DNA of 33,798 nucleotides from a virus. Position 1 is the first letter of the stretch; the number at the start of each line of letters is the position of its first letter. Below, piece by piece: positions 4,865 to 29,370 of this stretch. The DNA lies in the IMG/VR virus record IMGVR_UViG_3300031999_000114, positions 1 to 33,798 of that record, one strand, 5' to 3'. A program made the translations under genes and the position numbers. Below the pieces are notes generated by a model. The model ran no database searches. It had not been told where the DNA came from and worked only from the letters and a program-made list of their open reading frames with translations.

Positions 4865-4870
4865 GCGCCC
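4838..4870 (+). repeat. Small-gene junction cassette, copy 3 (exact 33-bp repeat)
   Basis: Identical over 33 bases to 5182-5214. It holds the last codons of one gene (AMLGEVKP), the ribosome site GGGGAAG, the TGA/ATG overlap, and the first codons of the next gene (MSA). With the 5182 copy it brackets exactly one gene. Confidence 0.85.
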
Positions 4871-5208: not shown

Positions 5209-5214
5209 GCGCCC
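5182..5214 (+). repeat. Small-gene junction cassette, copy 4 (exact 33-bp repeat)
   Basis: Perfect copy of 4838-4870. It encodes AMLGEVKP and the TGA/ATG overlap leading into the next MSAP gene. Confidence 0.85.
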
Positions 5215-5725: not shown

Positions 5726-6366
5726 CCGTTTCGGCCGTCACCTTCGACGCAACCGCCCACCGCTACACCATCGACGGGCGCGAAGTGGCGGCCGTCACCA
5801 AGGTGATCGGCAGCGTCATCCGCAAGCCGGCCCTCGAGCGCTGGATCGGCGACCTCGGCAATGTCGAGGCCAACCGCCGCAAGGAAGAAGCCGGCGACCG
5901 CGGCACGCTCGTGCATGCGCTCGCCACTCTGCACGCCGAGGGTACGCCCGACATCCCGCTTGGCGAGGAGGTTGCGATCCGACCGCAACTACGGCTCTTC
6001 GAAGAGTGGTATGCGGACCAGGTGAAGGAACTGCTCGCCTGTGAATTCATCGTCCACCATCCGCGCTATGACTACGTGGGGACACTGGACTTCCTCGTGC
6101 GTCTGCGCGGCGACAGGATCCCGACGGTGATCGACGTCAAGACCGGCGCCTCACTGTGGCCGGAGATGCGGGCGCAAACCGCTGCATATCGCGCCGCTGC
6201 CCTGCTGGGCATCCTGGCCGAACTCGGCTTCAAAGACTGCCGGCGGGCCATCGTACACGTGCCCGAGGGCGCTGTCATCGCTCGCTTCCACGAGCACACA
6301 GAGCACACCGCTGATTTCGAGGCATTTTTGTCTTGTTTGTACCTCTACCGCTGGCTACGCACATGA
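5722..6366 (+). CDS. PD-(D/E)XK nuclease, RecB/Cas4-like exonuclease
   Basis: 214 residues. Motifs fit the RecB-type branch: RGTLVHALA with His65, a Glu near 108 (CEFIV), YVGTLDFLVRL with Asp123, VIDVKTG with Asp138 and Lys140, and the downstream QTAAYRAA pattern (Gln152, Tyr156) typical of RecB, Cas4 and lambda-type exonucleases. Metal-dependent DNA end resection is the expected activity. Placed just before a coiled-coil protein and a putative annealing protein, it would supply the exonuclease of a phage recombination pair. The ATG at 5722 overlaps the previous stop. Confidence 0.8.
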   Translation: MTVSAVTFDATAHRYTIDGREVAAVTKVIGSVIRKPALERWIGDLGNVEANRRKEEAGDRGTLVHALATLHAEGTPDIPLGEEVAIRPQLRLFEEWYADQVKELLACEFIVHHPRYDYVGTLDFLVRLRGDRIPTVIDVKTGASLWPEMRAQTAAYRAAALLGILAELGFKDCRRAIVHVPEGAVIARFHEHTEHTADFEAFLSCLYLYRWLRT

Positions 6367-6389
6367 ACGAACAAAGGGGGATCTGACCT

Positions 6390-7046
6390 ATGGCTATGCC
6401 ATCTACATCCATCGAAGTGCTGCCGGTCGAGTCGGACGAGCGCTTCCAAACCCTGGCAAGCGGTGCGCTCGAGTTGCTCGGTCGTGCCCGCGAGATCCAG
6501 ATCAGAGACGACGAGTCCGACGCCGAGGCCAAGCAGTTCCTGGTGCAGGTGACCACGGCGCGCAAGCGCTGGGACGAACTGCGCCACTGGTTCGTTGACC
6601 CGCAGAACGCCCACATCAAGGCGATCAACAACCTGTTCAAGGCGCAGGCATCCCCCGTCGACGAGGCGGAGAGCGTTCTGCGCGGCAAGGTCGGCGTCTA
6701 CTTCCACACTAGGCAGGAGGCGGCCCGCAAGGAGCAGGAGCGCCTGCGCAAGTTGGCCGAGGCGAGGAACGCTCGCCAAGCCGTCAGGGCCGAAGAGCGC
6801 GGCGAAGAGCCGCCGGCACTGATCTTCCCACTGCCCACCGTGGCGACCCCCGAGAAGACCACACACACCGAGTCAGGCAGCGTCACCGTGCGCAAGGTGT
6901 GGCGCTTCCGGGTCGTCGATCCGACACAGGTGCCGGATGAGTACAAGGTCGTGGACGAGCGCAAGATCGGCGCCGTCGTCAAGGCCGGCATCCGCAATAT
7001 CCCCGGCGTGTACATCTTCGAGATTGAGGAAGTGGCGGTGAGATGA
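6390..7046 (+). CDS. Coiled-coil recombination-associated phage protein
   Basis: 218 residues. The central region (about 30-140) is charged and helical, including ARKEQERLRKLAEARNARQA. The C-terminus VRKVWRFRVVDPTQVP ... IPGVYIFEIEEVAVR is a conserved ending of phage proteins encoded beside annealing proteins. AAGGGGGA precedes the ATG. Expected to work with the nuclease and the annealing protein, perhaps as a host-nuclease inhibitor or loading factor, but no activity can be read from the sequence. Confidence 0.6.
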   Translation: MAMPSTSIEVLPVESDERFQTLASGALELLGRAREIQIRDDESDAEAKQFLVQVTTARKRWDELRHWFVDPQNAHIKAINNLFKAQASPVDEAESVLRGKVGVYFHTRQEAARKEQERLRKLAEARNARQAVRAEERGEEPPALIFPLPTVATPEKTTHTESGSVTVRKVWRFRVVDPTQVPDEYKVVDERKIGAVVKAGIRNIPGVYIFEIEEVAVR

Positions 7047-8281
7047 CCAACGAGATCACGACATACCAGCAGGCCGACCTGCCGGCCCTCACAGCTGAGC
7101 AGGTGCGTGCCCGCGTGAACCTCATCCAGCAGGTCATGAAGGGCGTCATGAAGCCCGGTGTCCACTACGGCACTATACCGGGCACCGACAAGCCGACCCT
7201 CTACAAACCGGGTGCCGAGACCTTGGCGGTCACTTTCCGCATCGCGATCGACCCGCTGGTGGATGACCTCTCGACTGACGACGAGGCCCACATCCGCGTC
7301 ACCTGCCGCGGCATCAGCCAGGACACCGGCGCGGTGCTCGGCTCTGGCATCGGTGAGGCTTCGAGCAATGAGGAGCGCTACCACTGGCGCAAGGCCGTCT
7401 GCGATGAGGAGTTCAATGACACGCCAGAGGATCGCCGGCGGGTGAAGTGGGCCAAGGGCAAGGGCGGCAGCGTCTACACCGTCAAACAGGTGCGGACCGT
7501 GCCCGCCGACGTGGCGAACACCGTCCTCAAGCAGGCCAAGAAACGTGCCCAGGTCGACATGACCTTGTCGATTACGGGCGCCTCGGACATCTTCGCCCAG
7601 GACATTGAGGACCTACCGGCCGAGATGCGGTCGGTGGTCGCCGAGGATCAGAAGAGCGACGGCGATCAGGCGACGATTGGCCCGGTCGCCTTGATGGTGC
7701 TTGAGCAGTTGATGGTGGCCAAGGGCGTCACAGAGAAGCAGGCCAAGGCCAACCTCTCGCGCAAGGAGCACTTCAACGGCGAGCTGGCCGAGATGCCGAC
7801 GGCGACCTGGGAACGCCTCTGCGCGGGGCTGGCGAAGATGCCGGACAAGACGCCCAACGAGGAGGATCACCCGACGCCCCCACAGGTCATCGACGCGATC
7901 CTGGCAAAGTCGAAGCCCGAGCCGCCGATCGTCACCGACGCGAATGGTGAGGTGATCGACCAAGAACCTGAGGAGGACGTGCCCGGCGCGGGGCCGGAGG
8001 AGATCGACGACTTCTGGCCGGCGGACGATGCGGACGGCATGCACAACGCGTCCAACCCCGCCAAGGGCGAGACCGTCACCACGGGCGAGGTCTGCACCGA
8101 GAAGCAGCGCAAGCTGGTCTATGCGAAATCGAAGGCGGCCGGCCTCGATGACGACTCTCTGCACCAGATCATCCGCATGGCCGGCGGTGTCGAGTCCTCC
8201 AGAGACCTGCCGTTCGACAAGGTGGATGACGTGCTGGCGGCAATTGCCGACTTTAGACCGAGACAGGGGGCGATAGCTTGA
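7043..8281 (+). CDS. Putative single-strand annealing/recombination protein
   Basis: 412 residues. The N-terminal block has IQQVMKGVMKPGVHYGTIPG and KPTLYKPGAETLAVTFRI, the hallmark of a widespread phage family next to exonuclease genes. The middle has ADVANTVLKQAKKRAQVDM, seen in annealing-type proteins (the AKKRA region of Sak/RecT-like families). An acidic linker (about 300-345) precedes a C-terminal helical module (TEKQRKLVYAKSKAAGL ... SSRDLPFDKVDDVLAAI) common in phage recombinases. It follows the nuclease gene, as in Red-type modules. Exact class (Sak, Erf or RecT) is not decided by eye. Confidence 0.6.
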   Translation: MTNEITTYQQADLPALTAEQVRARVNLIQQVMKGVMKPGVHYGTIPGTDKPTLYKPGAETLAVTFRIAIDPLVDDLSTDDEAHIRVTCRGISQDTGAVLGSGIGEASSNEERYHWRKAVCDEEFNDTPEDRRRVKWAKGKGGSVYTVKQVRTVPADVANTVLKQAKKRAQVDMTLSITGASDIFAQDIEDLPAEMRSVVAEDQKSDGDQATIGPVALMVLEQLMVAKGVTEKQAKANLSRKEHFNGELAEMPTATWERLCAGLAKMPDKTPNEEDHPTPPQVIDAILAKSKPEPPIVTDANGEVIDQEPEEDVPGAGPEEIDDFWPADDADGMHNASNPAKGETVTTGEVCTEKQRKLVYAKSKAAGLDDDSLHQIIRMAGGVESSRDLPFDKVDDVLAAIADFRPRQGAIA

Positions 8282-9078
8282 GTGCCCCCTATCAGCTCTT
8301 CCGTGACCTGTCACCGGCCATCGAGGCCGCCCTGCGTGCCAGCATTGACCACTTCGGCGTGCTTCTGCCGGTCGTCAAAGACCAGCACGGCAACCTCCTT
8401 GACGGCTACCAGCGCACTCGCATCGCCGAGTCGCTTGGCCTGACGTACCCGGTGAACATCATCGAGGTCGCCGACGAGGCAGAGGCGCTTGAGATAGCGC
8501 GCACCCTGAACGAGGACCGGCGCGCCATGCCGAAGGACGAGCGACTGCCGGTGGAGCAACACCTGCGGGAAGCGGGCCACTCGCTGCGAGCGATTGCGGG
8601 GGCGGTGGGGGTCAGTGAGGGGCAGGTTCGGAAAGACATCGCTGACGAAGAGCTGCGTACCGGTACGCAGGTGACACCTGACCGAGTGATCGGCCTCGAT
8701 GGCAAGAGTTACCCGGCGCAGAGGTTACCCGCTGCTCAGCGCGCCGCCCAGATACAGACACTAGCGACTGAAGGTCACAGCAGTGCTCAGATAGCCGAGC
8801 ACCTGGGTATCGGCGCAGAGCGCGTGCGTCTGGTCGCCCGCAAGAATGCCATCCCACTTCCTGCTGATGCCGCCATGGGAAAGGCTAGAAAGTTCGATGA
8901 CACACGCATCATTGAGCAGACCGTCAACTCGCTGGAGGGTCTTGCGACTGGGCTGAACTTACTCAGCGAGCACCCGCAAGTCGACCCGGTGCAGGCGCAG
9001 GGCTGGGCAGACTCCATGGAGCATTCTCGGCGCGCCTTCAATCGTCTCATCAGACAACTAAGGAGGGCAGCCCAGTGA
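8278..9078 (+). CDS. ParB/sulfiredoxin-fold protein with HTH segments
   Basis: 266 residues, TTG start overlapping the previous stop (TTGA). Residues about 5-75 form the ParB-N/Srx fold, with LLDGYQRTRIAESLGL at the position of the usual GHHR/GxxR box; Tyr replaces the common His. Two HTH-like segments follow: SLRAIAGAVGVSEGQVRKDI at about 101-120 and SSAQIAEHLGIGAERVRLVA further on. Likely binds specific DNA. Standalone phage proteins of this sort are seldom true plasmid-partition ParBs; CTP hydrolysis or nuclease activity is not evident. The next gene carries the same fold. Confidence 0.65.
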   Translation: MSAPYQLFRDLSPAIEAALRASIDHFGVLLPVVKDQHGNLLDGYQRTRIAESLGLTYPVNIIEVADEAEALEIARTLNEDRRAMPKDERLPVEQHLREAGHSLRAIAGAVGVSEGQVRKDIADEELRTGTQVTPDRVIGLDGKSYPAQRLPAAQRAAQIQTLATEGHSSAQIAEHLGIGAERVRLVARKNAIPLPADAAMGKARKFDDTRIIEQTVNSLEGLATGLNLLSEHPQVDPVQAQGWADSMEHSRRAFNRLIRQLRRAAQ

Positions 9079-9875: not shown

Positions 9876-9903
9876 CCGGGGAATGGCTGGAGGAGGCGAT
9901 CGT

Positions 9904-10230
9904 ATGAGCCCCGTCTTCAACCGCTACTCACCAATGCGTGAGTCGGCGCAGGAACTGGCAGCCTTACTACCCGACCCGGTGCCCGCCAAGCTGGCCGCCG
10001 AGATCCTCGGCGTCTCCGAGGATACCGCCTACGAGATGTGCCGCGCCTTCATCGCCGCCAAGGCGCGCGGCGACCTGGCCGGCATGCGCAACGGCATCCC
10101 CTGCATCAAGCCGGAGGGGCGACGGCGCTTCATCATCCCCCGTGCCGCCTTTGTGGTCTTCTACACCGCGGCCGGTCTCTCTGACGATCTGCTGCGTGAG
10201 CTCTACGGCAATCGGGCGGTGGCATCGTGA
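9904..10230 (+). CDS. HTH DNA-binding protein
   Basis: 108 residues from the ATG at 9904, picked over the ATG at 9883 because GGAGGAGG sits ten bases upstream of the former. VPAKLAAEILGVSEDTAYEM is a helix-turn-helix of the HTH_17 type, followed by RRRFIIPRAAFVVFY as wing and helix. It resembles small phage excisionase-like and regulator proteins. It ends overlapping the tiny membrane peptide gene. Confidence 0.6.
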   Translation: MSPVFNRYSPMRESAQELAALLPDPVPAKLAAEILGVSEDTAYEMCRAFIAAKARGDLAGMRNGIPCIKPEGRRRFIIPRAAFVVFYTAAGLSDDLLRELYGNRAVAS

Positions 10231-18055: not shown

Positions 18056-18273
18056 GCGACGAATCGAAGACTGCATGCGCCATCCAGGTGGCACCGGATG
18101 GTGAGTTGCGTGTGTGTGGGACGTGCCACTGGTGCGGCTATTTCTTTGAAGGGCACACATGTGACCATCCGACCCACATGAGAAAGTCGTTGGATTACGG
18201 CAGCCTCAGTGACGCGCCGGTGTCCATTCACAATACCTGCGAATGTTGGAAGGTGTGGGGAAAGGGGACATGA
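18052..18273 (+). CDS. Cys-rich small protein
   Basis: 73 residues. CGTCHWCGYFFEGHTCDHP in the middle and NTCECWKVW at the end give about seven Cys and three His, enough for one or two metal sites. ATGA overlap with the previous gene and overlap with the next. No family recognised. Confidence 0.6.
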   Translation: MSDESKTACAIQVAPDGELRVCGTCHWCGYFFEGHTCDHPTHMRKSLDYGSLSDAPVSIHNTCECWKVWGKGT

Positions 18274-18464
18274 CCGACGCTGAGTTCACGCAGCTCTGCG
18301 GCACCATCCTGAGGGGCGTCAGCCTGCTGACTGCCTGCGATTCGCTCGGCCTTGATGTGCGTGAGGTGCTCACCCAGGTCGAGGAAGACCCGCGCCTGCT
18401 CTGTGACCTCTACTCAGCCATGGTGCTGCGCGCCCACATGTCGGAGCGGGTGCCCGCCGAGTAG
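18270..18464 (+). CDS. Small HTH protein, terminase-small-subunit-like
   Basis: 64 residues. ILRGVSLLTACDSLGLDVRE followed by VLTQVEEDPRLLCDLYSAMV resembles the N-terminal HTH of several phage small terminases (pattern G-x-S-L-x-x-A-C ... W-x-x-x-D-P-x-x-x-x-x-Y-x-x-A). A short DNA-binding protein of the packaging module is therefore plausible, but the better small-terminase candidate is at 19767. Its TAG stop is the first triplet of the repeated start-associated motif. Confidence 0.5.
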   Translation: MTDAEFTQLCGTILRGVSLLTACDSLGLDVREVLTQVEEDPRLLCDLYSAMVLRAHMSERVPAE

Positions 18465-18496
18465 GGAATAGGCCCCCTGCCATGCTTGAGTGCATG
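18462..18496 (+). repeat. Start-associated motif, copy 1
   Basis: TAGGGAATAGG, 8 bases, CATGCT, 7 bases, ATG. Contains a perfect 7-bp inverted repeat, GCCATGC-TTGAGT-GCATGGC (18479-18498), whose right arm includes the start codon at 18494. Confidence 0.8.
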
Positions 18497-19777
18497 GCCG
18501 AACAGAGCAAAGGTACCACTCTAAAAGAAACCGCTGCCCAGATAGAGTTCTGGGAGACCTCTCGCTGTATTCCGTATGCCCGTAATCCTCGCTGTGTGCC
18601 CGACTTGGCGATCAGCAAGGTTGCGGGATCCATCAAGGAGTTCGGCTTCCGCCAGCCAATCGTGGTCGATGCCGAGGGCGTCATCATCGCCGGCCACACG
18701 CGCCTCTTGGCTGCTGAGCGTCTTGGTCTTGAACGTGTGCCCGTACTGGTAGCCGTCGACCTGACCCCGGCGCAGGTGAAGGCGTATCGCCTGGCCGACA
18801 ATCGCACCGCGCAAGAGGCGACGTGGGACCCCGAACTGCTCAACATCGAGCTGGAAGACCTCGCCGGACTCGACATCGACCTGTCACTGACAGGGTTCGG
18901 TTCCGAGGAGATCGCTGCCCTGCTGGCCAGTCCCACCGAGGGCCTCACTGGCCCAGATTCCGTCCCTGAGCCACCCACTGAGCCCGTGTCGCGCTCCGGC
19001 GACCTGTGGCTGCTGGGATGCCACCGCCTGCTCTGTGGCGATTCTACGAGCCACGACGACGTCCGGCACCTGATGGACAGCAAGCGTGCCAGTCTGATGG
19101 CCACCGACCCGCCATACCTCGTCGACTACGACGGCGGCAACCATCCGCCCACCTGGGCCAACAAGGGAAAGAGCGGGGATCCTGACTGCGGCACTAAGCA
19201 CTGGGACGCCTACACCGACCACGACAGCTCGGTGAAGTTCTACTCAGACTTCCTGCAGACGGCCCTCGCGAGCGCGCTCACAGAGACGCCCATCATCTAC
19301 CAGTGGTTTGGCATGATGCGCGCCGAGGTGGTCTTTGAGGCTTGGCGCTCTGTTGGCCTCTTGCCGCACCAAGTGCTCGTCTGGGTCAAGAGCCGCCACA
19401 TCCTCTCCCGCTGCGATTTCATGTGGAACTACGAGCCCTGCATGTATGGCTGGATTGAGGGCAAACGCCCTGAGAGCGAGCGCCGGCCACCCGCCAACGC
19501 GACGGCGGCCTGGGAGATCGACTCGACGATTGAGGATGGCGCTGCCGGGATCCATCCGACGATGAAGCCGGTTGAGACGGTACGGCGGCCGATCGAGTGG
19601 CACACCAGGCCCGGTGGCCTGATCTACGAGCCCTTCTCTGGTTCTGGCACGGCCATCATCGCTGCCGAGATGACGGGCCGTATCTGCTACGCACTGGAAC
19701 TCGCGCCAGCCTATGTTGATGTGGCAGTGCGGCGTTGGGAGAACTTCACCGGGAAGAAGGCGACCCGTGGCTCATAA
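18494..19777 (+). CDS. ParB-domain / DNA methyltransferase fusion
   Basis: 427 residues. Residues 18-110 are a ParB-N/Srx domain (GVIIAGHTRLLAAERLG, GHTR at 67-70). From about 170 comes an N6-adenine/N4-cytosine methyltransferase: LLCGDS, catalytic TDPPY (205-208), a middle target-recognition region, then YEPFSGSGTAIIAAEMTG with the SAM-binding FSGSGT at 381-386. The ParB-MTase fusion is a known phage class that modifies DNA just before packaging; no restriction partner is seen. The start at 18494 was chosen because it falls at the motif's ATG; an ATG at 18482 would add four residues. It directly precedes the terminase genes. Confidence 0.88.
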   Translation: MAEQSKGTTLKETAAQIEFWETSRCIPYARNPRCVPDLAISKVAGSIKEFGFRQPIVVDAEGVIIAGHTRLLAAERLGLERVPVLVAVDLTPAQVKAYRLADNRTAQEATWDPELLNIELEDLAGLDIDLSLTGFGSEEIAALLASPTEGLTGPDSVPEPPTEPVSRSGDLWLLGCHRLLCGDSTSHDDVRHLMDSKRASLMATDPPYLVDYDGGNHPPTWANKGKSGDPDCGTKHWDAYTDHDSSVKFYSDFLQTALASALTETPIIYQWFGMMRAEVVFEAWRSVGLLPHQVLVWVKSRHILSRCDFMWNYEPCMYGWIEGKRPESERRPPANATAAWEIDSTIEDGAAGIHPTMKPVETVRRPIEWHTRPGGLIYEPFSGSGTAIIAAEMTGRICYALELAPAYVDVAVRRWENFTGKKATRGS

Positions 19778-20117
19778 ACTCATCATCCTCGATCTCACCG
19801 AACTTGAGAAGTTGGCGGCGATGCACTGCACGCAGCGCGAGGTTGCGGCCTGGTTCGGTGTCACGCACAAGACCATCTCCTACAAGTTGCGCCAGAAGGT
19901 CTACGCCGAAGTCTGGGAGCGTGGCTGGGCGAAGGGCAACATCAGCCTGCGCCGGCAGCAAGCTCAGCGTGCTGAGGCGGGCGATCGCACGATGCTCGTC
20001 TGGCTCGGCAAGCAGTGGTTGGGGCAGGCCGACAAGCAGGAGATCACCCACCTGACACTTGACACCATCGAAGCTGAGGTAGCTCGTCTTGAACGCGAAC
20101 TTGCCCGGAACGATTGA
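19767..20117 (+). CDS. terS: Small terminase subunit-like HTH protein
   Basis: 116 residues, GTG start overlapping the methyltransferase stop. CTQREVAAWFGVTHKTISYK is a clear helix-turn-helix, followed by SLRRQQAQRAEAGDRTMLVW and LGKQWLGQADK, a combination typical of small terminase-type proteins encoded just before the large subunit. It would recognise the packaging site and bring in the ATPase. A GAAGAAGG sequence lies upstream of the GTG. The 18270 product is an alternative or additional DNA-recognition subunit. Confidence 0.7.
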   Translation: MAHKLIILDLTELEKLAAMHCTQREVAAWFGVTHKTISYKLRQKVYAEVWERGWAKGNISLRRQQAQRAEAGDRTMLVWLGKQWLGQADKQEITHLTLDTIEAEVARLERELARND

Positions 20118-21528
20118 CGCGCGGCATCTCGCCGACATCAGTCGACGACTCAGGGCGTTACGCGAGGCGGTGCCGCCTGTAGAACCGCCCTCCGTCCGCC
20201 TGTTCGTCGAGCGCTGCACCATCGTCGAGAAGGAGAGCGGCGACCTGCTGCCCTTCACACTGTGGCCGGCGCAGGTCGAGGCGCTGGAGACGATCATCGG
20301 TGCCGACTACCTGGTAGCGGTCAAGGGTCGCCAAGTCGGTATGACCTCGCTCGAGCTGGCCGCCATGCTGTGGGCGGCGACCTTCTGGCCAAACCGTCTC
20401 TTCCTCATCGCTCGCCAGTCGCTCGACTACGCGCAGGATGCCATCCGCCGCCTGCGCATACTGCGCCTTCGCCTGCCTGACCATTTCCGCGAGCCGGTCA
20501 CGCAGGAGACAACCATGGTGATGCAGTTCGCCAACGGGTCGCGCTTCGAGGCGCTGACAGCCACGCAGGAGATCGGCCGCGGACTGGCTGCCTACTGGAC
20601 GCTGGCAGATGAGGCGGCCTTCTGGCCGTGGCCCGACATACAGATTCCAGTGCTCGAGGCTGGCTCGGCACGGATGCACATCGTCTCGACCGGCCATGGA
20701 CCTGGCGACACGCTGCACCGTATCTGGCGCAAGGCGAACCTCGGTGAGGGACTCTATACGCCGCTCTTCATCCCGTCGTCAGCAGACGCACGGCGTACGT
20801 CTGAGTGGCGCCGGCGCAACGTCGACGAGGCGGCGGAGCCGCGCCTTGCCCAGCGCGAGTATGCCGAGACGCCCGAGGATGCGTTCGCCTCGCCAGAGGG
20901 TGTCTTCTTCGAGCGCTTCGATGCGCTCCGTAACGTGGCCGAGCTCCAAGTCGTCCCCAATTGGCAGACCGTACGCGCCGTCGACTTCGGCTACCGTTTC
21001 GCTGCCTGTCTGTGGCTGCAGAGCTCGCCAGCAGGGCAACCGTTCGTGGTGGCTGAGTTGGCCCCCAAGGACTGTACGACCGACGAGTTCGCCGCTGAGA
21101 TCAAGCGCGTGGATGCTAGTCTGGGCCTGGCTATCGCTCCCTCACGCACCTACTGCGACCCCGCCGGCAATGCCGCCAATGTGCAGACGGCACAGAGTGA
21201 GGTGCAGATCCTGCGTGCCGCCGGCCTGCTACCGATTAGCAGACCATCCTCGATCCGCGACGGCTGTGTGCGCGTCATGGCGGCGCTCGCTGATCCAGTC
21301 CTGCCGCTGGTCGTCTCGCGTTCCTGCCCACATCTGGTTGAGGCCCTGTCCAACGTGCGCCCCGACAAGCACCGCCCCGACCTCTACGACGAGACGAGCG
21401 ATTACTGCCACATCCTCGACGCCCTGCGCTACTGGTCAGTGAATCGTTCGGCAGCGGGAACTGTGCACTCCTCGCCCATCGCCGGCGGTCGCCCGATCAC
21501 CGCCGGCCTGGTCGGCCGTCAGTTCTAG
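20089..21528 (+). CDS. terL: Large terminase subunit (packaging ATPase-nuclease)
   Basis: 479 residues. The ATPase domain has VAVKGRQVGMTSLELA (Walker A variant, Lys79 to Thr86), FLIARQSLDYAQDAIRRL and YWTLADEAAFWP (Asp174, Glu175, Walker B). The RNase-H-like nuclease domain has RAVDFGYRFAACLW (Asp299), YCDPAGN near 350, and SDYCHILDALRY (Asp444). It drives DNA into the prohead and cuts it at start and end. TTG at 20089 has GAGGT eight bases upstream and overlaps the small subunit; TTG at 20101 is an alternative. Ends in TAG, followed by copy 2 of the start-associated motif. Confidence 0.92.
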   Translation: MNANLPGTIDARHLADISRRLRALREAVPPVEPPSVRLFVERCTIVEKESGDLLPFTLWPAQVEALETIIGADYLVAVKGRQVGMTSLELAAMLWAATFWPNRLFLIARQSLDYAQDAIRRLRILRLRLPDHFREPVTQETTMVMQFANGSRFEALTATQEIGRGLAAYWTLADEAAFWPWPDIQIPVLEAGSARMHIVSTGHGPGDTLHRIWRKANLGEGLYTPLFIPSSADARRTSEWRRRNVDEAAEPRLAQREYAETPEDAFASPEGVFFERFDALRNVAELQVVPNWQTVRAVDFGYRFAACLWLQSSPAGQPFVVAELAPKDCTTDEFAAEIKRVDASLGLAIAPSRTYCDPAGNAANVQTAQSEVQILRAAGLLPISRPSSIRDGCVRVMAALADPVLPLVVSRSCPHLVEALSNVRPDKHRPDLYDETSDYCHILDALRYWSVNRSAAGTVHSSPIAGGRPITAGLVGRQF

Positions 21529-21544
21529 CCGCTGCCTCCGCAGA

Positions 21545-21578
21545 TAGGGAACAGGCCCTCCGCCACACTAGTGGCATG
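21545..21578 (+). repeat. Start-associated motif, copy 2
   Basis: TAGGGAACAGG, 8 bases, CACACT, 6 bases, ATG. Contains the inverted repeat GCCAC-ACTA-GTGGC just before the ATG. The frame from this ATG reads MSILTRLLGG and runs into the coiled-coil gene. Confidence 0.85.
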
Positions 21579-21794
21579 AGTATCCTCACCCGTCTGCTAG
21601 GAGGCATCATGGCAACAGTCGACATCACCCTGCTACGCAACCGTGTCAAGGCCCTGGAGATGGCGAAGACCGCCGACGAGGCGAAGATCGCCACTCTGGA
21701 AGCCCGGCCGGTGTCGGTCGATACGAGCGCGACCATCGCCGCCTTGGCGGCGCGCGTCGCCGCCATCGAAGCGGAGCTGGCAAACCCTTCCTGA
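21576..21794 (+). CDS. Short coiled-coil protein, possible N-terminal part of a tailspike
   Basis: 72 residues from the motif ATG at 21576, or 61 from the in-frame ATG at 21609, which has a strong TAGGAGG site. The longer start reads MSILTRLLGG, much like the portal's MSMFTRLRGL. ITLLRNRVKALEMAKTADEA and IAALAARVAAIEAELA are heptad repeats, so a trimeric coiled coil is likely. The gene ends two codons after AAACCCT, a slippery heptamer that could pass ribosomes into the downstream beta-helix frame. Alone it may be a small structural or trimerisation protein. Confidence 0.6.
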   Translation: MSILTRLLGGIMATVDITLLRNRVKALEMAKTADEAKIATLEARPVSVDTSATIAALAARVAAIEAELANPS

Positions 21795-21825
21795 CCCCAC
21801 CGCCAATCCCACCGACGGTGATGGG
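21782..21825 (+). promoter_or_regulatory. Candidate -1 programmed ribosomal frameshift site
   Basis: A-AAC-CCT at 21782-21788 fits X-XXY-YYZ in the zero frame of the coiled-coil gene. A 6-base spacer (which holds the TGA) is followed by a stem: CCC and CACCG (21795-21802) pair with CGGTG and GGG (21816-21820, 21823-21825) around a 13-base loop with a 2-base bulge. Slipping back one base enters the beta-helix frame, which is open from here. Confidence 0.5.
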
Positions 21826-22633
21826 GCACACGGTGCTGCGTGACGTTCACGACAAGGTATTCGAGAACGTGACGTTCGATGGCGCGGGCGGCGGGAACCC
21901 CGACTCGTCCGGCGTCCTCGAACTATGGGGTGCCTGCTACAACCTGAGGTTCACCGCCATCACCATCAATCCGAACAGAGATGCAATCGGAAGCGGTGTC
22001 ATGATCGCCGATTCCGGCAGGGGTATGCATGACATCGTTTTCGAGACCCCGCACATCATGACGCAGCCCTTCATGGGTTTCGTCTGCAATGCCCGTTGCA
22101 GTAGTAACGGCTACCAGCGCGTCGACCTCGTCAACGCCATAATCGAGCCGCAAGGCTCGGAGGCCGTCTCTTACGACGATACCTCTGGCACCGCCGGTCA
22201 TTGTCTCGTTGAGAACAACCTTGTCAAGGGCGGCGGGTTAACGACGCTCTATCCATACGGCCAGGGCTTCGAGATCAACGGCGTCCACGACATGGTGGTT
22301 AGACGTAACACCTTTGCTGCCTGTCGCGGTGCCATCCTCAACCTGCAGATGCACGATACGCGCGACTGCGGCTGGGTCTTTGAGGATAACGTCGTCGACC
22401 AGTCGCAGGCCTATGGCGGGGTCATCGTCGGCGTATCCCAGGCCGTGGGAGCCGCCAATGTCTACGGCGGCCGGTTCGCACGCAACACGATCATCGGAGC
22501 GGCCCCGAGCCGGGGTGTCGCCTTCCTGAACGGCTGCCACGACATGGATTGGCGCACGACCATCTGGCGGGATGCACGTGGCGGCAACTACGCGATCCCA
22601 TACCAGACTGGCTGCGTCGGGAATCTATTCTAA
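21821..22633 (+). CDS. Beta-helix protein, putative tailspike or appendage
   Basis: 270 residues from the ATG at 21821 (GTG at 21818 also possible). Repeated short strands of the right-handed parallel beta-helix type are visible: VFENVTFDG, HDIVFETPHIM, HCLVENNLVKGG, HDMVVRRNTFAACRGAIL, WVFEDNVVDQS, ARNTIIGAAP. This is the fold of pectate-lyase-like phage spikes that bind or cut host polysaccharide; no catalytic triad can be named. No ribosome site precedes the start. The frame is open upstream back to a slippery heptamer in the coiled-coil gene, with a proline-rich link (TPPPIPPTV), so it may be made as the C-terminal part of a fusion. It lies between terminase and portal, an unusual place for an appendage. 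Confidence 0.65.
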   Translation: MGHTVLRDVHDKVFENVTFDGAGGGNPDSSGVLELWGACYNLRFTAITINPNRDAIGSGVMIADSGRGMHDIVFETPHIMTQPFMGFVCNARCSSNGYQRVDLVNAIIEPQGSEAVSYDDTSGTAGHCLVENNLVKGGGLTTLYPYGQGFEINGVHDMVVRRNTFAACRGAILNLQMHDTRDCGWVFEDNVVDQSQAYGGVIVGVSQAVGAANVYGGRFARNTIIGAAPSRGVAFLNGCHDMDWRTTIWRDARGGNYAIPYQTGCVGNLF

Positions 22634-22645
22634 GGCAGGAGCGAC

Positions 22646-23347
22646 ATGGCAATAGCAGAGGTTGGCAACGCGACCAGCAAGGCATCCTCCACCACGCCCA
22701 CCATCACACACGGGCTGACCATTCTGGCGGGACATGTGATCATCGTCTGCCTCCACTGTGACGGCGTCTCGCCCACCTCCGACCCAGCCGATAATAACGG
22801 AGCGACCCCATTCACGCTCGCCTATCAGGCCGGGACGCCCGACACGAGCCGCTACAGCATCTGGTATCGCGTCGCCGGGTCCGGCGAACCCGCCACCTAT
22901 AAGTGGACAAAAACCAGCGCCAGCGGCTGGTCCATCGCGCTGCGTGTCTTCTCGGGCGTTGATGCCACTGTCTGGGACGTGACGCCAGGGGCGGACACTG
23001 GCGCGACCGGAACAAGCGCCTCACCGAGTGCACCATCCGTCACGATAACTACCGATGGTTCGCTGGGCATCGCGGCGTTCTTCGTCGACTCGTCTAGTCT
23101 GACGTTTTCTTCACCGACCAACGACTACGGGAGCGAGGTCGAGCCTGTGGCCGGCGGTCGTAACGAGGCGTGCTACACCAAGCCCGCACTGGCCCCAGGA
23201 GCAACCGGGGCCACTGGCGTCACCATGTCCGGCTCGGACGACTGGGCGGCACAACAGTTCGCGCTCAAGCCTGACGGTTCTACTTTCATCCCCACCCGCT
23301 CAGGCGGTGCGGGCATCGGTTCTGGAATCGCGACCGCCATCCTGTGA
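22646..23347 (+). CDS. Phage structural or appendage protein, beta-rich
   Basis: 233 residues, GGCAGGAG before the ATG. SIWYRVAGSGEPATYKWT and GWSIALRVFSGVDATVWDV match a beta-sandwich module frequent in phage tail and decoration proteins of high-GC hosts. GSLGIAAFFVDSSSLTFSSP and the Gly/Ala/Thr-rich end (GATGATGVTMSGSDDWAAQQ) also fit. No signal peptide or enzyme motif. Its position in the appendage cluster suggests a fibre-associated protein. Confidence 0.55.
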   Translation: MAIAEVGNATSKASSTTPTITHGLTILAGHVIIVCLHCDGVSPTSDPADNNGATPFTLAYQAGTPDTSRYSIWYRVAGSGEPATYKWTKTSASGWSIALRVFSGVDATVWDVTPGADTGATGTSASPSAPSVTITTDGSLGIAAFFVDSSSLTFSSPTNDYGSEVEPVAGGRNEACYTKPALAPGATGATGVTMSGSDDWAAQQFALKPDGSTFIPTRSGGAGIGSGIATAIL

Positions 23348-23355
23348 GGTGAGTG

Positions 23356-25092
23356 ATGGAGTTCAGACGCACTAAGAATGTCGATACCAGGGTGGTGTTC
23401 CCGATCCAGAAGACGGACGGCACGTTCATCACCGGAGCCACCGGGCTCGACTCGGAATACGCCCTGCTGGGAGCACACGGCGGGGCGGCCCCTACGTGGA
23501 CCGACTGCACCCACGAGGCGACGGAGATAGGCACGACCGGGATGTACTACCTGGACGTGAGCGCCGCTGAGCTCAACGACGATTACGCCGCCATCCAGAT
23601 CAAGTCGACCAGCACGGGGGCGATCACGCAGGTCCTGCTGTTCAACCTCACCAACCAGCCCTCCGATGTCATCAACTGGAAGGGCAGTGCGGCGGCGGCC
23701 CTCACCGGCGACCCCTACGCAGAAGCGGCGGCCGTCCATGCGCATGTGAACACCATCGACGGCCACATCACGGCCGACTACGGCTCCACCGAGAAGACCT
23801 GCATCGACCTGCTTGACGATGCCAACGGCCTCGTGAACATCCACGACACGGTGGACACCGTGGCTGGTTACATCGACACCGAAGTGGGCGCCATCAAGAC
23901 GCAGACCGACAAACTCGCCTTCACGGTCGCCAACCAGGTCGACGCCAACGTGCTCGACTGGAAGGGTGGGACGGCTCCCGCCATGACCGGCGACGCCTAC
24001 GCTCGCCTCGGAGCACCTGCCGGCGCCTCAGTCTCGGCGGATGTGGCGGCGGTCAAGGGCGACACGGCGGCCGTCAAGACCAAGACCGACAACCTGCCAG
24101 CGAGTCCGGCGGCCGTCGGCTCGGCCATGACACTGGCTGCCGGCGCGATCACCGCCGCCGTGGTGGCCACCGACGCCATCGACGACGACGCCATAGCCAC
24201 CGGAGCGATCGCCTCCACGGCCTTCGCCGCGGGCGCGATCACCGCCGCCGCCATCGCCGACAACGCCATCGACTTCGCCACCTTCGCCGCCGACTGCAAG
24301 ACCGGCGCCGGCTTGAAGGCCAACGTCGAGTCGGTCACCGCCGCGGCGATTACCGCCGCGGCTATAGCGGCCGACGCGATCGGAGCCAGCGAGCTGGCGG
24401 CGGATGCGGTGGCCGAGATCGCCGACCAGGTCTGGGACGAGGCGATCGCAGGCCATGCCGGCGCGGGCAGTACGGGCCTGGCTCTGGCCGGCGCCTCCGC
24501 ACCGACTGCGAATGCCGTGGCTGACCAGGTGTGGGACGAAGTGCTCGCTGGCCACGCCGGAGTCGGTAGCACCGGCGAGGCGCTGGCTAGTGCCGGCGCG
24601 GCCGGCGATCCGTGGAACACATTGCTCCCGGGCGCCTACGGAGCGGGCAAGGCTGGCAAGATCGTCGGCGACAACATCAACGCGCCACTGGCGACCATCG
24701 ACACGGTGGTCGATGCCATCAAGGCAAAGACCGACACCATCGGCGCGGGCACCGTCACCGTCACCAGCCCGGTGGCCAGTGACGGTGTGACCGTCACGAC
24801 CTACCGCGGCGACGACTACAAGCAGCACGAGGGGCGCGAGATTCGCTGGCTGATTGCCACGCCGGACCTCTCCACAGCGGTCACGACACTGCATGTCGGC
24901 AGTCTCGATATCGTCTGCACCCTGGTCGACGGTGGCCTGGCGACGCAGTCTATCTATGCGGAGCTCACCGCGGTCCAGACGGCGACACTTCTTGAGGCAC
25001 GTGGTCTCTACAGCGTCACGGCTGCCATGGCCGATGCCGACGTGCGCACCCTGGTGGTCGGCGAGTGGAAGTCTGAGATTCGGGTGGCCTAA
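23356..25092 (+). CDS. Tail-fibre-like repeat protein
   Basis: 578 residues. The N-terminal 100 residues (VVFPIQKTDGTFITGATGL ... TTGMYYLDVSAAELN) form a beta domain seen in phage fibre proteins. Two kinds of repeats follow: a W-K-G ... TGD-x-YA unit near residues 106-126 and 201-220, and a DQVWDE(A/V)(I/L)AGHAGxGSTG unit near 357 and 392. Between them is an Ala/Ile/Asp-rich stretch (AAVVATDAIDDDAIATGAIA) resembling a helical or beta-prism fibre shaft. The C-terminal 130 residues return to a globular beta domain (YRGDDYKQHEGREIRWLIA). GAGGTGAG precedes the ATG at 23356. Confidence 0.65.
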   Translation: MEFRRTKNVDTRVVFPIQKTDGTFITGATGLDSEYALLGAHGGAAPTWTDCTHEATEIGTTGMYYLDVSAAELNDDYAAIQIKSTSTGAITQVLLFNLTNQPSDVINWKGSAAAALTGDPYAEAAAVHAHVNTIDGHITADYGSTEKTCIDLLDDANGLVNIHDTVDTVAGYIDTEVGAIKTQTDKLAFTVANQVDANVLDWKGGTAPAMTGDAYARLGAPAGASVSADVAAVKGDTAAVKTKTDNLPASPAAVGSAMTLAAGAITAAVVATDAIDDDAIATGAIASTAFAAGAITAAAIADNAIDFATFAADCKTGAGLKANVESVTAAAITAAAIAADAIGASELAADAVAEIADQVWDEAIAGHAGAGSTGLALAGASAPTANAVADQVWDEVLAGHAGVGSTGEALASAGAAGDPWNTLLPGAYGAGKAGKIVGDNINAPLATIDTVVDAIKAKTDTIGAGTVTVTSPVASDGVTVTTYRGDDYKQHEGREIRWLIATPDLSTAVTTLHVGSLDIVCTLVDGGLATQSIYAELTAVQTATLLEARGLYSVTAAMADADVRTLVVGEWKSEIRVA

Positions 25093-25095
25093 AAG

Positions 25096-25130
25096 TAGGG
25101 AACAGGGGTTCCCGCAGACTTGTGGACATG
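25096..25130 (+). repeat. Start-associated motif, copy 3
   Basis: TAGGGAACAGG, 8 bases, CAGACT, 7 bases, ATG (portal start, 25128). Its 5' half is itself an inverted repeat, GGGAAC-AGGG-GTTCCC. It shares AAAGTAGGGAACAGG with copy 4. Confidence 0.85.
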
Positions 25131-27413
25131 AGCATGTTCACGCGGCTGCGGGGCCTCTTCCTCGCCGAGAAACCGAAGGGCATATCACGTCCGGCGACCG
25201 CTGAGGTCGGCGACACCGGCATGGGGTATGCCGTCGGCTCCGGCACCACTAAGGGCGCCGTCTCCAAGCGTCTGCGCACGCTCGAGCAGAACTGGGAACT
25301 CTACGAGCGCAACGGGTACATCCTCTACGACCGCATGCGCTTCTCGGATCCGAAGGTCGCCGGCCTGTTGCGTGCCATGCGCCTGCCGATCCTCGGCGCC
25401 CAAGTCTCCATCGAACCCTCAGATCCCGAGGATGAACGCGCCAAGGAGATCGCCGAGTTCGTCTCGGACAACCTCTTGGGAGGTCTCGCCGACTCCTGGC
25501 GGGCGACCCTCTATCAGTTCCTGCTCTACCTCTGTCACGGCTTCGCCCCGTTCGAGATGGTGTGGAAGATCGAGGACGGCAAGGCACTCATCGATCGCTT
25601 CGCCTACCGTCCGCCAGCCACCATCGCCACCAGAGACATCTTCGTCGCCAACGGTCGCATCGAGCACGTCCACCAGTCCACCGACACCGGCTTCCAGGCC
25701 GACATCCCCGGCGAGAAGCTGCTGTGGTTCGTCAACGACCGCGAGGGCGACGACTTCTGCGGCCGGGCGCTGTTGCGGCCCATGTTCAAGCCGTGGTTCG
25801 GCAAGGAGAAGCTCGAGATCCTGCTGCTGATCGCCGCCGACCGCGGCAACGGCACGCCGGTGGTCATCGCCCCCGAAGGCGGTTGGGGCACCGACACCAG
25901 CGGCAACGCGCTCGGTCCCCAGGTTGATGACGCCCTGGCCGCTTTCTCCACCTCCGAGAGAGGCTTTTTCCACTTCCCCTTCGGCACGACATTCACGCTG
26001 GAAACCTCGAACGCCTCGATCGCCGAGCTGACGGCGCTCAAGGCCAACTTCGAGATGGACATGAGCAACGTCGCCATCGCGCAGGTGCTCGACCTGGGCA
26101 AGACCGAGACCGGCAGCCGCGCTCTGGGCCGCACGATGAGCGACATGTTCCTCGACTCGCTGATCGCCATCGCAGTCGACGTGGAGGACACGATCAACGC
26201 GAAGGGCGGGCCGATACATCAGCTGGTGGCCTACAACTTCGCCGGCGCCGACGACCTGATGCCCTCACTGCGCTTCGGCTCACTGTCGAAGATCGATCTC
26301 AAGACGCTGGCGCTCGCCTTCCTCCAGCTGCAGCAGACCGGCATGCCGTTCGGCGAGGAGACCTGGGAGTGGATTCGTTCGGAGCTCGACCTGCCACCGC
26401 TCAAGGCTGAGGAAGCGACCGGAAGTCCGCAGCAACCGTTGCTGCCCGATGCGCGCTTGCCCGCGCCCGAAGTGCCACCTGAACCACCACCGACACCGAC
26501 CCCGCCAGGGCAATCACCGCCAGGACAAACACCGCCGCAGCCAGTCCCGCCGGCGCAGGCTTCCGAAATCGTGCTCGCCGAGAAGCACTACTGGCGAGAA
26601 CCCCGCGGACCTGAGCTCTACGCCGACCTGGCTGATATCGGCGCGCGCCTTGATGCCGCGCCGGCTGCACTGCGCACCGCCACACAGACAGCCCGCGAGG
26701 GCATGGTCGCCGAGCTCGTGCGCCGCGCGCAGGCAGCCATCGCGAGCGGCGATGTGGCCAAGGTCGCCGCGCTGGCGCAGGCCAAGCCGCCGATGGTCGA
26801 CAAACTGACCGCCGCCGTGCGTGGCGTTCTGCATGAGGCAGCCGCCGCCGGCGCCGCTCAGGTACGCGACGAGCTGGCCCGCCAGAAGGCCGGCACGCCG
26901 GTGGTCGAGCAGGCCATCGCCGAACGCCAGGGTACGAGCGTGCAGGCTGCGCAGCGTAAGCCTCCAAAGAAGACAGCGCCGCCCACCTGGGCTGAGGATC
27001 TGAATGCCTACATCGACGCACAGGCGGATGTCACGGCGCGGCAGATCGCCTCTGTCACGCAGGCAGCCCTGGCCGCTGAGGCGATGCGCGGTCTGGCGAC
27101 GAAGGTGAGTGCCGATGCACTCACCGCCATGGTCACGCGCGCCAGTGACGAGGCCGCCCTGCGCGCCGGCCTGGTCGTCAGTCACATCATGGCAACCAGC
27201 CGCGCCGCTGAGGCGCTCGCCAACCGCGAGAAGATCAGCGTCGCCTTCTACTCCGCCATCCTCGACGACCGTACCTGCGGAGTCTGCGAGGAAGCCGACG
27301 GCCAGGAGACCACCGACCTCGACGAGGCGGCCGGCTGGACTCCCAACCCGGACTGTGACGGCGGCGCCAACTGCAGATGCGAAACCTTCTTCGAGCTGAA
27401 GGAAGGCGCCTGA
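25128..27413 (+). CDS. Portal protein fused to a MuF-like head-morphogenesis domain
   Basis: 761 residues. Residues about 50-430 match Mu-type (DUF935) portals: LYERNGYILYDRMRFSDPKV, YLCHGFAPFEMVWK, LLWFVNDREGDDFCGRALLR, KEKLEILLLIAADRGNGTPV, LDLGKTETGSRALG. A Pro/Gln linker (TPTPPGQSPPGQTPPQPVPP) follows near 465. The C-terminal 250 residues are helical and end with the MuF signature: SAILDDRTCGVCEEADGQE plus CDGGANCRC. Portal and MuF are normally separate genes, so this is a fusion. The start is placed at the ATG that ends motif copy 3, although the frame is open six bases upstream; no ribosome site is seen. Confidence 0.88.
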   Translation: MSMFTRLRGLFLAEKPKGISRPATAEVGDTGMGYAVGSGTTKGAVSKRLRTLEQNWELYERNGYILYDRMRFSDPKVAGLLRAMRLPILGAQVSIEPSDPEDERAKEIAEFVSDNLLGGLADSWRATLYQFLLYLCHGFAPFEMVWKIEDGKALIDRFAYRPPATIATRDIFVANGRIEHVHQSTDTGFQADIPGEKLLWFVNDREGDDFCGRALLRPMFKPWFGKEKLEILLLIAADRGNGTPVVIAPEGGWGTDTSGNALGPQVDDALAAFSTSERGFFHFPFGTTFTLETSNASIAELTALKANFEMDMSNVAIAQVLDLGKTETGSRALGRTMSDMFLDSLIAIAVDVEDTINAKGGPIHQLVAYNFAGADDLMPSLRFGSLSKIDLKTLALAFLQLQQTGMPFGEETWEWIRSELDLPPLKAEEATGSPQQPLLPDARLPAPEVPPEPPPTPTPPGQSPPGQTPPQPVPPAQASEIVLAEKHYWREPRGPELYADLADIGARLDAAPAALRTATQTAREGMVAELVRRAQAAIASGDVAKVAALAQAKPPMVDKLTAAVRGVLHEAAAAGAAQVRDELARQKAGTPVVEQAIAERQGTSVQAAQRKPPKKTAPPTWAEDLNAYIDAQADVTARQIASVTQAALAAEAMRGLATKVSADALTAMVTRASDEAALRAGLVVSHIMATSRAAEALANREKISVAFYSAILDDRTCGVCEEADGQETTDLDEAAGWTPNPDCDGGANCRCETFFELKEGA

Positions 27414-27724
27414 TGGCCTGCCGTAAGTGCGCCCTCTGCTGCCAGTGCATTCGCTTCAGCCTGCCGCCAGACGATGACCGCGAGCACTGGATGCGCCTTT
27501 TCGGGCTCATCGTCTCGCGCATGCCGAGCGGCCAGACCTCGGTCATCGTGCCCAAACGTTGCGACAACCTGGACCCGAAGACACTGCGCTGTCGCGACTA
27601 CGAGAACCGCCCGACCATCTGTCGGGAGTTCCTCTGCGATGAGGCCCGCAAGGAGGCCCCCGAAAGTAGGGAACAGGCCCCCGCGCAGACTGATGGCATG
27701 AGCGTGAATGAGGCAGGTAAGTGA
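27413..27724 (+). CDS. YkgJ-like cysteine-cluster protein
   Basis: 103 residues. CRKCALCCQC at 3-12, CDNLDPKTLRCRDYENRP and CREFLC further on give the CxxCCxxC ... C ... YxxRPxxCRxF pattern of the YkgJ/FliB-type zinc- or iron-sulfur-binding family, whose activity is poorly known. It overlaps the portal-MuF stop (TGATG) and sits between portal and protease, where it is an outsider. The last 20 codons are motif copy 4 in translation, so the native protein probably ended near DEARKEAPE and was extended by the motif. Confidence 0.75.
   Translation: MACRKCALCCQCIRFSLPPDDDREHWMRLFGLIVSRMPSGQTSVIVPKRCDNLDPKTLRCRDYENRPTICREFLCDEARKEAPESREQAPAQTDGMSVNEAGK
27667..27700 (+). repeat. Start-associated motif, copy 4
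   Basis: TAGGGAACAGG, 8 bases, CAGACT, 6 bases, ATG. It lies inside the 3' end of the YkgJ-like gene. Its ATG is in that gene's frame and is followed by eight codons and a TGA that overlaps the protease start (TGATG). Confidence 0.85.
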
Positions 27725-29370
27725 TGCCACTCAAGAGATGCACCCTGGAAGGGCGGCCGGGCTGGCAGTTCGGCGCGGCTGGTAAGTGCTACACCTACGC
27801 AGCCGGCGACGATGTCTCCGAGGCCGCGGCCAAGAAGAAGGCCATCAAGCAGGCCATCGCCATCGGTGGCGGCAAGCCGCCTGCCGAGGGGCTGTCTGAA
27901 CTCTACCGCCTAGCTGAGTCGGCCAAGGCTGGCGAGCGTATCCCCATGATGCTCTTCCCCATCGGCATCTGGAAGAGCGCCAAGTATCCGAAATTGTCGC
28001 TCACACGTGAGCTGGCCGAGGCCGTGATCGCCAACTTCGAGGCCAATGTCCTGGGCACCGAGCCAGTGGTCGACTCGTCTGGCAAGCATGATACCGCGGC
28101 CGAGGCCGCGGGCTGGATCAAAGACCTGCGCATCGCGCCGACCAAGGATGGCGGTGAGGCGCTCTTTGCCGATTGGGAGCCGACCGATCTGGGCGCCGCT
28201 CAGCTCAATGAGAAGCGCTACCAGTACAACTCGGTCGAGATCGGCGAGGTTGTCGACAACGTGACCGGTGTCAAGACGACCAACGTGCTGCGCAGTGTGA
28301 CGCTCACCAACACGCCGATCCTGCGCATGCTGCCGCCGGTACTCGAGGCGGGCGAGGCGATCGCCGCCTCCGAACCGATCGAAGTGGCGCTCTCCGAACT
28401 CGAGCCGGTCGATCCCGTTACTGGCCTCATCGATGACATCGACGCTCTGCTGGCCAAGCTCGACGACAACCTCAAAGGCAAGGCTGGCATTCGCGCCATG
28501 CGCACCTACCTGCGCGAGACCAGGGCCAAGGCGAGTGCACACGCAACTCTTGCGGAGGCTGGCAGCACCAACGATGTACGCGCTGAACTTGAACGCGCAT
28601 TGCAGGAACACCACGCCGGTGGCAGTGAGGGGTTGTATATCGATGATTTCGGCCCCGATTGGGTCGTCTATCACGTCTGGTCGGCTGGCCCACTCGGCGA
28701 GAACGTCATCCAGCGCGCCAGCTATATGCGTGATGCAAACGGCATCACCTTCGGTCAGCCGATCGAGGTCAAACAAGAGATCACTTATATCCCCCCATCC
28801 GAACCGAGCCCAAGCGGCGGAGCGACTGGCGAGGCACTCGCCGACGGCACCTGCGCAGCGGGAGTCGGTGTACGGCTCAACCTAAGCAAGGAGAGGAGCA
28901 TGTCCGATCTTACCGAGCTGCTGAAGCTCAGCGAGAGCGACGATGACGCCCTGATTCTCGCTGAGGTCAAGAAGGTCATCACGGAGAACGCCACGTTCAA
29001 GGCCAAGTTCGCCGAAGGCGAGAAGGCCGAGCGTGTGCGCAAGCTGGACGAGGCGATCGCCGGGACGCATGTACTCCCGGCTGAGAAGGACGTCATGTTG
29101 GCGTTGGCCGAGTCCGCTCCTGGGACCTTCGATGCGACGCTCAAGGCCCGCGAAGATGCGGGCGTGAAGCTCGTTGACACCAGCGAGCGCGGGAACGGTA
29201 CGCCGCCGCCCGAGCCCAAAGAGTACGCAGACCCCAGCATCGAGCTGGCGGAGAAGGCGCAGGCCAAGGCGAAGGCCGACGACATCAACTATGGCGAGGC
29301 CATGCGCCTCGTGATGGCCGCCGATCCCACTCTTGCCGAGCGCTACGTGACCATCGGCAAGGAGGTGTGA
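27724..29370 (+). CDS. Mu-I-like prohead protease with C-terminal scaffold domain
   Basis: 548 residues from the ATG at 27724, overlapping the previous stop. Residues about 60-215 fit the Mu gpI protease: MLFPIGIWKSAKYPKLSLT, DSSGKHDTAAEAAGWI (candidate catalytic His122 in HD), YQYNSVEIGEV and RSVTLTNTPILRM. A module follows near 290-355 (LYIDDFGPDWVVYHVW ... ENVIQRASYMRD). From about 393 the chain is charged and helical like a scaffold (LILAEVKKVITENATFKAKF). The scaffold part also has its own internal start at 28900. The protein would mature the prohead and be removed by self-cleavage. Confidence 0.8.
   Translation: MPLKRCTLEGRPGWQFGAAGKCYTYAAGDDVSEAAAKKKAIKQAIAIGGGKPPAEGLSELYRLAESAKAGERIPMMLFPIGIWKSAKYPKLSLTRELAEAVIANFEANVLGTEPVVDSSGKHDTAAEAAGWIKDLRIAPTKDGGEALFADWEPTDLGAAQLNEKRYQYNSVEIGEVVDNVTGVKTTNVLRSVTLTNTPILRMLPPVLEAGEAIAASEPIEVALSELEPVDPVTGLIDDIDALLAKLDDNLKGKAGIRAMRTYLRETRAKASAHATLAEAGSTNDVRAELERALQEHHAGGSEGLYIDDFGPDWVVYHVWSAGPLGENVIQRASYMRDANGITFGQPIEVKQEITYIPPSEPSPSGGATGEALADGTCAAGVGVRLNLSKERSMSDLTELLKLSESDDDALILAEVKKVITENATFKAKFAEGEKAERVRKLDEAIAGTHVLPAEKDVMLALAESAPGTFDATLKAREDAGVKLVDTSERGNGTPPPEPKEYADPSIELAEKAQAKAKADDINYGEAMRLVMAADPTLAERYVTIGKEV
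28900..29370 (+). CDS. Nested in-frame scaffold protein (internal start)
   Basis: ATG at 28900 lies in the protease frame with AAGGAGAGGAG immediately upstream, a far better ribosome site than the one before the protease itself. The 156-residue product (MSDLTELLKLSESDDDALIL ... to the shared stop) is acidic and helical, as expected for a capsid scaffold. This copies the known lambda C/Nu3 and Mu I/Z arrangement, in which the scaffold is made from an internal start of the protease gene. The following gene is a capsid decoration protein. Confidence 0.75.
   Translation: MSDLTELLKLSESDDDALILAEVKKVITENATFKAKFAEGEKAERVRKLDEAIAGTHVLPAEKDVMLALAESAPGTFDATLKAREDAGVKLVDTSERGNGTPPPEPKEYADPSIELAEKAQAKAKADDINYGEAMRLVMAADPTLAERYVTIGKEV

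Follow-up and report, generated by a model that had tools for sequence, protein, structure and literature searches.

The window analysed here is an IMG/VR viral contig of 33.8 kb, a linear fragment of an uncultured, soil-type, temperate tailed phage. Phage genes recognized on it encode a replication initiator, a DnaB helicase, an integrase, a ParB-methyltransferase, TerL, a Mu-type portal, a Mu-like protease and a major head protein. The composite pattern TAGGGAAYAGG-N8-CANNCT-N6/7-ATG occurs in exactly four copies in this record, with zero mismatches and always on the + strand, at sites that span the packaging/head region from the terminase module to the head protease. The copies and the genes around them are the following:

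18243..18464, + strand, gene for a small helical protein of 73 aa, HTH-like by inspection only, 5' of copy 1
18462..18496, + strand, motif copy 1: TAGGGAATAGG at 18462-18472, N8, CATGCT at 18481-18486, 7 nt, ATG at 18494-18496
18494..19777, + strand, gene for a ParB-domain/DNA methyltransferase fusion, starting at the ATG of copy 1 (alternative in-frame ATG at 18482)
21545..21578, + strand, motif copy 2: TAGGGAACAGG at 21545-21555, N8, CACACT at 21564-21569, 6 nt, ATG at 21576-21578
21576..21794, + strand, ORF of 72 aa, starting at the ATG of copy 2
25096..25130, + strand, motif copy 3: TAGGGAACAGG at 25096-25106, N8, CAGACT at 25115-25120, 7 nt, ATG at 25128-25130
25128..27413, + strand, gene for the Mu-type portal protein, starting at the ATG of copy 3; its C-terminal part matches Mu F-like/head proteins
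27413..27724, + strand, CxxCxxCC gene (zinc/iron-chelating domain); copy 4 encodes its C-terminal tail
27667..27700, + strand, motif copy 4: TAGGGAACAGG at 27667-27677, N8, CAGACT at 27686-27691, 6 nt, ATG at 27698-27700
27724..29370, + strand, gene for the Mu-like head protease, with its own SD-like site (-7.2 kcal/mol)

The gap between CANNCT and the ATG is thus 7, 6, 7 and 6 nt in copies 1 to 4. The TAG of copy 1 is the stop codon of the upstream 73-aa gene; a structure model of the encoded protein (pLDDT 60) was too poor for a fold search. Conserved bases run beyond the ATG in copies 2-4, as ATGAGY, and copies 2 and 3 have 54 bp in common, which extend into the coding start. Copy 3 contains a perfect inverted repeat, GGGAAC-AGGG-GTTCCC (25098-25113). 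Such a palindrome is found in some copies only, and CCCYCY stands at that place in others, as if the motif had two interchangeable middles.

A sequence-only reading of this DNA had described the pattern at 18462, 21545, 25096 and 27667, and all four copies were recovered there without mismatch. It had also proposed a pattern search of the rest of the genome, which yielded no further forward match, none on the reverse strand of the record and none with a reversed-pattern control. A two-block matrix scored the four copies at 29-30 bits. The next best site reached 10.6-11 bits (10.6 on the + strand), which is at the random level (null: mean maximum 10.1, largest 15.9), so that there is no tail of degenerate copies. 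Across the four copies, 17 of 39 columns are invariant (33.6 bits per copy); in 25 fourth-order Markov genomes, no four-copy family exceeded 15 columns and 26.9 bits. An ATG follows a random + strand position by 6-7 nt with a frequency of 0.027, and four of four by chance would have a probability of ~5×10-7 with a gap that was defined post hoc. The bare 11-mer in four copies is not rare by itself in this GC-rich sequence. Our case rests on the composite structure and on the relatives, not on the 11-mer alone.

Related contigs and the phage host

We sought relatives by their portal, MCP, TerL, methyltransferase and TerS proteins, and only the contigs L005 and L009 share the late region. The comparison base is three contigs, with at most eight informative motif sequences. 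L005 is 88-94% identical to the window and keeps all four copies at orthologous places. Copy 1 is 100% identical and copy 4 (at 10532 in L005) is identical as well. The orthologue of copy 2 (at 3099) has GGTT for CCCT in the middle bases, and that of copy 3 (at 7961) has T for a middle C, with blocks and spacing unchanged in both. Perfect or near-perfect palindromes lie at 3101-3116 and 7963-7978 of L005, the copy 3 version with GGGAAT.

L009 is 92-96% identical to the window in the integrase and part of TerL, and the genes around copy 1 differ. The 35 nt from the motif to the ATG are 89% identical between the two contigs, compared with 55% for the 150 nt upstream and 50% for the 150 nt downstream (random 150-mers: 49%). 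The gene 5' of copy 1 in L009 (7823-8098) encodes a 55% identical homologue of the 73-aa protein and also ends in the TAG of the motif. The gene 3' of the copy is not a ParB-methyltransferase gene; it encodes TerS, unrelated to the TerS of the window, and begins exactly at the motif ATG. The retention of copy 1 in L009 despite the replaced downstream gene speaks strongly, in our view, for selection acting on the motif itself. A repeated, conserved element 5' of late genes that is kept through gene exchange is one of the marks of phage late promoters as a functional class, and such an element was found here.

The same comparison revealed other differences in gene order and content. The ParB-domain protein of L009 is a different one, encoded at 6044-7108 on the 5' side of the motif and Dam-like at its C-terminus (by inspection), and the ParB-N6/N4 methyltransferase of the window (18494-19777) lies 3' of it: two positions and two fusion types in one phage group. 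The module from TerL to the portal is swapped between the window (22651-24430; 1.8 kb) and L005 (4221-7295; 3.1 kb), with repetitive sequence near 23660-24290 within the module of the window. The window gene at 21818-22633 gave a weak beta-helix match, as in tail spikes sited among packaging genes.

Beyond this phage group, blastn with copies 3 and 4 against 50,697 phage records gave short chance matches only, none of them meaningful, and the element had no match in Rfam. Loosened patterns yielded 45 and 14 stretches in viral contigs. Those other than L005/L008 and L009/L010 are unrelated, lie mostly in AT-richer or coding contexts and were taken as chance; in the isolate record among them (L040), the match lies inside an ORF on the strand opposite a recT-like gene.

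None of 299 genomes of the class Thermoleophilia contains the relaxed pattern, indicating that the element is not an ordinary host promoter and belongs to the phage. This class (Actinobacteriota) probably contains the host, judging by one TerL match, which is 53% identical over 366 aa and was found in one of 379 Thermoleophilia-class genomes. The matching TerL (L188/L194; genome G045, contig 218) lies on a 3.8-kb contig with no motif downstream; this contig is possibly a prophage remnant and is the only host clue. Relatives of the integrase in genomes of Bacillota, Actinomycetota and Chloroflexota are at most ~40% identical over the full length and are not diagnostic of the host.

Start codons and Shine-Dalgarno sites at the copies

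Duplex energies with the anti-SD sequence at the motif ATGs were -1.5, 0, 0 and 0 kcal/mol for copies 1-4. All four ATGs consequently lack an SD site, and not three of the four as stated in the sequence-only reading. Among 36 other starts, which were chosen by hand for this comparison, 26 had an energy of -4.5 kcal/mol or stronger and seven (about a fifth) were also without SD. The same reading had placed the ParB-methyltransferase, portal and protease genes behind the motif ATGs. The first two do start there, at copies 1 and 3, but the protease does not: its ATG is at 27724, is SD-led and lies 26 nt beyond the ATG of copy 4. That copy sits within the 3' end of the CxxCxxCC gene, where its ATG is an in-frame Met codon that opens 8 codons only. 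At copy 2, a further in-frame ATG (21609; GTG in L005) follows AGGAGG with an energy of -9.5 kcal/mol, 33 nt past the motif ATG. Given that the ATG of copy 4 is internal and that an SD-led start follows copy 2, a gene's start codon is not what the motif is tied to.

Promoter reading and rival explanations

ANNNT stands at -13 to -6 in 79% of M. smegmatis promoters, which prefer A or G at +1 and are enriched in C at -1; leaderless transcripts make up 24% of the total (PMC6448022). Promoters of M. tuberculosis have no -35 consensus (PMC3898074). With the A of the ATG as +1, the second block of the motif, CANNCT, would be the -10 element, placed at -12 to -7 in copies 2 and 4, with its A at -11 and its T at -7; in copies 1 and 3, all of these positions shift upstream by one base. 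The base just before the ATG (-1) is C in four of four copies. All four thus have ANNNT within -13 to -6, A at +1 and C at -1, and ANNNT is found at this distance in 13% of the window ATGs. The combination of a missing SD site with ANNNT at -13 to -6 is that of leaderless starts, and copies 2 and 4 are in addition followed by a leadered, SD-led start 26-33 nt further on.

We consider it fairly probable that the motif is a phage-specific late promoter which is used four times in the packaging/head region. Promoter activity, the +1 position, a recognizing factor and late timing are what we infer from these patterns. Transcripts would start on the ATG itself or a few bases away at most. Copies 1 and 3 would give leaderless mRNAs for the ParB-methyltransferase (TerS in L009) and the portal, and copies 2 and 4 would give leaders of ~33 and 26 nt with a normal SD site for the 72-aa gene and the protease; the SD-led starts past the latter two copies fit a +1 near the motif ATG. 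A +1 at or beside the ATG would cover all four copies, whereas a 'start-codon element' fails for copy 4, which is why we prefer the promoter.

Block 1, TAGGGAAYAGG, would be located at about -32 to -21, ending 8 bp before CANNCT in the would-be spacer. Since GGGAAY and CANNCT are only 11 bp apart, block 1 is not an ordinary -35 hexamer and may be bound by a specificity factor, phage-encoded or phage-induced, or by a spacer-binding activator. The first base of the -10 box is C, where TANNNT is preferred, which suggests a weak box needing help, and a factor at block 1 would compensate for it. Candidates for this factor are two HTH_17 proteins (3231-3509 and 9883-10230) and a ParB-like protein (8278-9078). 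The ParB-like protein gave several HTH matches, among them sigma-70 region 4 with marginal scores, and is a possible transcription factor. As a tentative extension, which we regard as possible, the motif could represent a new phage-encoded or phage-redirected transcription specificity in a phage of Thermoleophilia, a deep-branching class of Actinobacteriota: a two-block promoter with its upstream block in the spacer, leaderless late mRNAs and a putative phage factor.

Several observations count against a promoter. C in place of the preferred T as first -10 base is found in four of four copies, the conservation of ATGAGY past the ATG in copies 2-4 is not required by a promoter alone, and the lack of an SD site is shared by about a fifth of the other starts. 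No sigma factor, RNA polymerase or late activator was recognized in the 34-kb fragment. Known promoter types were considered and rejected. No sigma-70 promoter (-35/-10 pair) was found at the four sites. With GGAAC as an ECF-type -35, a spacing of 16-17 bp puts the start past the portal and methyltransferase ATGs, and by inspection there is no conserved CGTC- or GTT-like -10; the GG-N10-GC of sigma-54 promoters is, also by inspection, absent.

The fixed distance to the ATG and the missing SD sites would also be accounted for by a translation-control element in the mRNA, as was first proposed for SAS, in which one or two short hairpins ending at the AUG are used by the ribosome or a phage factor instead of an SD site. 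Copies 1 and 2 and their L005 and L009 versions fold as two tandem hairpins (z -1.5 to -2.8). However, the second hairpin is not common to copies 3 and 4 (z -0.9 and +0.9), the 3' arm is out of register between copies, and folding of the alignment gave 3 pairs with no compensatory change. Against it also stands copy 4, whose ATG starts no gene and whose downstream protease has its own SD site, and we judge a translation element unlikely. An operator, at which a phage regulator (a repressor, a late activator or a ParB-like/HTH protein) binds near gene starts while the promoter proper lies elsewhere, is in our view quite improbable. Among the products of this phage are several HTH/ParB-like proteins, block 1 is better conserved than block 2, and the palindrome GGGAAY-N4-GTTCC(C) is present in copy 3 and in L005 copies 2 and 3; yet it is absent from window copies 1, 2 and 4, and the motif is asymmetric, always points in gene direction and keeps a fixed distance to the -10-like box and the ATG.

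Gene exchange next to the motif raises the question of a recombination seam or duplication scar, in which the gene-start repeats serve as short homology and have no role in expression. The genes 3' of copy 1 differ between the window and L009, copies 2 and 3 share their 54 bp into the coding start, and L005 has other tail-spike and protease modules near copies 2-4. The exchange endpoints in L005 (at about 22651, 24430 and 27854) lie away from the motif, though, and a neutral scar would hold neither 89% identity between diverged flanks nor an invariant two-block spacing, making this explanation very improbable. The boundary for gene exchange offered by the sequence-only reading agrees with the swapped genes beside copy 1 in L009, but more than the junction itself has been swapped there. 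At this GC-rich composition, chance similarity could yield the 11-mer four times; the composite statistics and the orthologous conservation stand against it, and with the relatives at hand we consider it refuted for practical purposes. The promoter for leaderless mRNAs is thus the best supported of the three options raised earlier, with leaderless transcripts in part of the copies only; a pure translation element is disfavoured by copy 4, and an exchange boundary is at most a by-product.

More than ten years after the first description of SAS, the function of the start-associated motifs that recur in actinobacteriophages is still regarded as unclear. In the window, copy 4 marks an SD-led gene and copy 1 stays constant while the downstream gene is replaced, which separates the promoter from the translation reading. 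If true, the promoter reading would yield a model promoter for the phages of a little-studied soil class and help to predict late operons and leaderless starts.

Known start-associated motifs and a second repeat

Actinobacteriophages are known to carry repeated start-associated motifs, which as a class are unexplained (PMC3203893, PMC11373665, PMC7302621). SAS of cluster K lies 3-7 bp from the ATG, includes AGGAG, the core of the SD site, and occurs only among non-structural genes (PMC3203893). The element described here resembles SAS (GGGATAGGAGCCC) and ESAS (PMC3203893, PMC11373665) in being a short asymmetric repeat in one orientation beside the ATGs of unrelated genes, sometimes with an upstream stop codon, and ESAS holds a putative promoter. 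In contrast to the 11-19 copies of SAS there are four, block 1 ends 20-21 bp from the ATG without an SD site, and the copies lie among packaging/head genes. The SAS consensus had no match in the window with up to 2 mismatches. Neither the 17-bp imperfect inverted repeat of ESAS nor its SigA-like -35/-10 pair 17-18 bp apart was found, the distance from GGGAAY to CANNCT being 11 bp. The element lacks the defining features of SAS and is not filed as such; the likeness noted in the sequence-only reading holds for the layout, as an analogy only.

Two motifs of Microbacterium phages (PMC7302621) were also compared. The 18-bp motif of cluster EC, TAGaCTATaGGTgTaAgC, is likewise asymmetric and in one orientation, 21-30 bp 5' of starts; several of its copies lie between the terminase and portal genes and another is close to the protease gene, and it contains TANNNT (TAGACT), where two copies here have CAGACT. 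It differs in being contiguous and not two-block, and in its variable distance to the ATG with an SD site in between, as seen in Quhwah, whose copies we compared and found to be different in sequence. The SAS/ESAS-like motif of cluster EF, GGGAAAGGACCCC, shares the GGGAA start and the CCCC end with copies 1 and 4; it lies at the position of the ribosome site and matches the copies here only with 3 mismatches, no more than chance. Outside these groups, the middle and late promoters of Thermus phage P23-45 (extended -10 class; PMC7403470) offer an analogy for a -10 region recognized under a phage factor, with no sequence or gene relation shown and no gp39-like factor identified in this phage. 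The layout is shared with the actinobacteriophage motifs and the sequences are not; what is distinct here is the two-block form, the -10-like box at a fixed distance, the packaging/head genes and the missing SD sites.

The early region of the window contains another four-copy start-associated repeat, CGGGGARGTMARRCCATGAGYGCCC, at 4356-4381, 4544-4569, 4846-4871 and 5190-5215. It bridges two adjacent small genes, covering the 3' end of the first and the start of the second, and holds the SD-like sequence GGGGAAGT/GGGGAGGT. Because it spans the junction and has an SD-like sequence inside, this repeat is probably a duplicated gene junction with a ribosome site.
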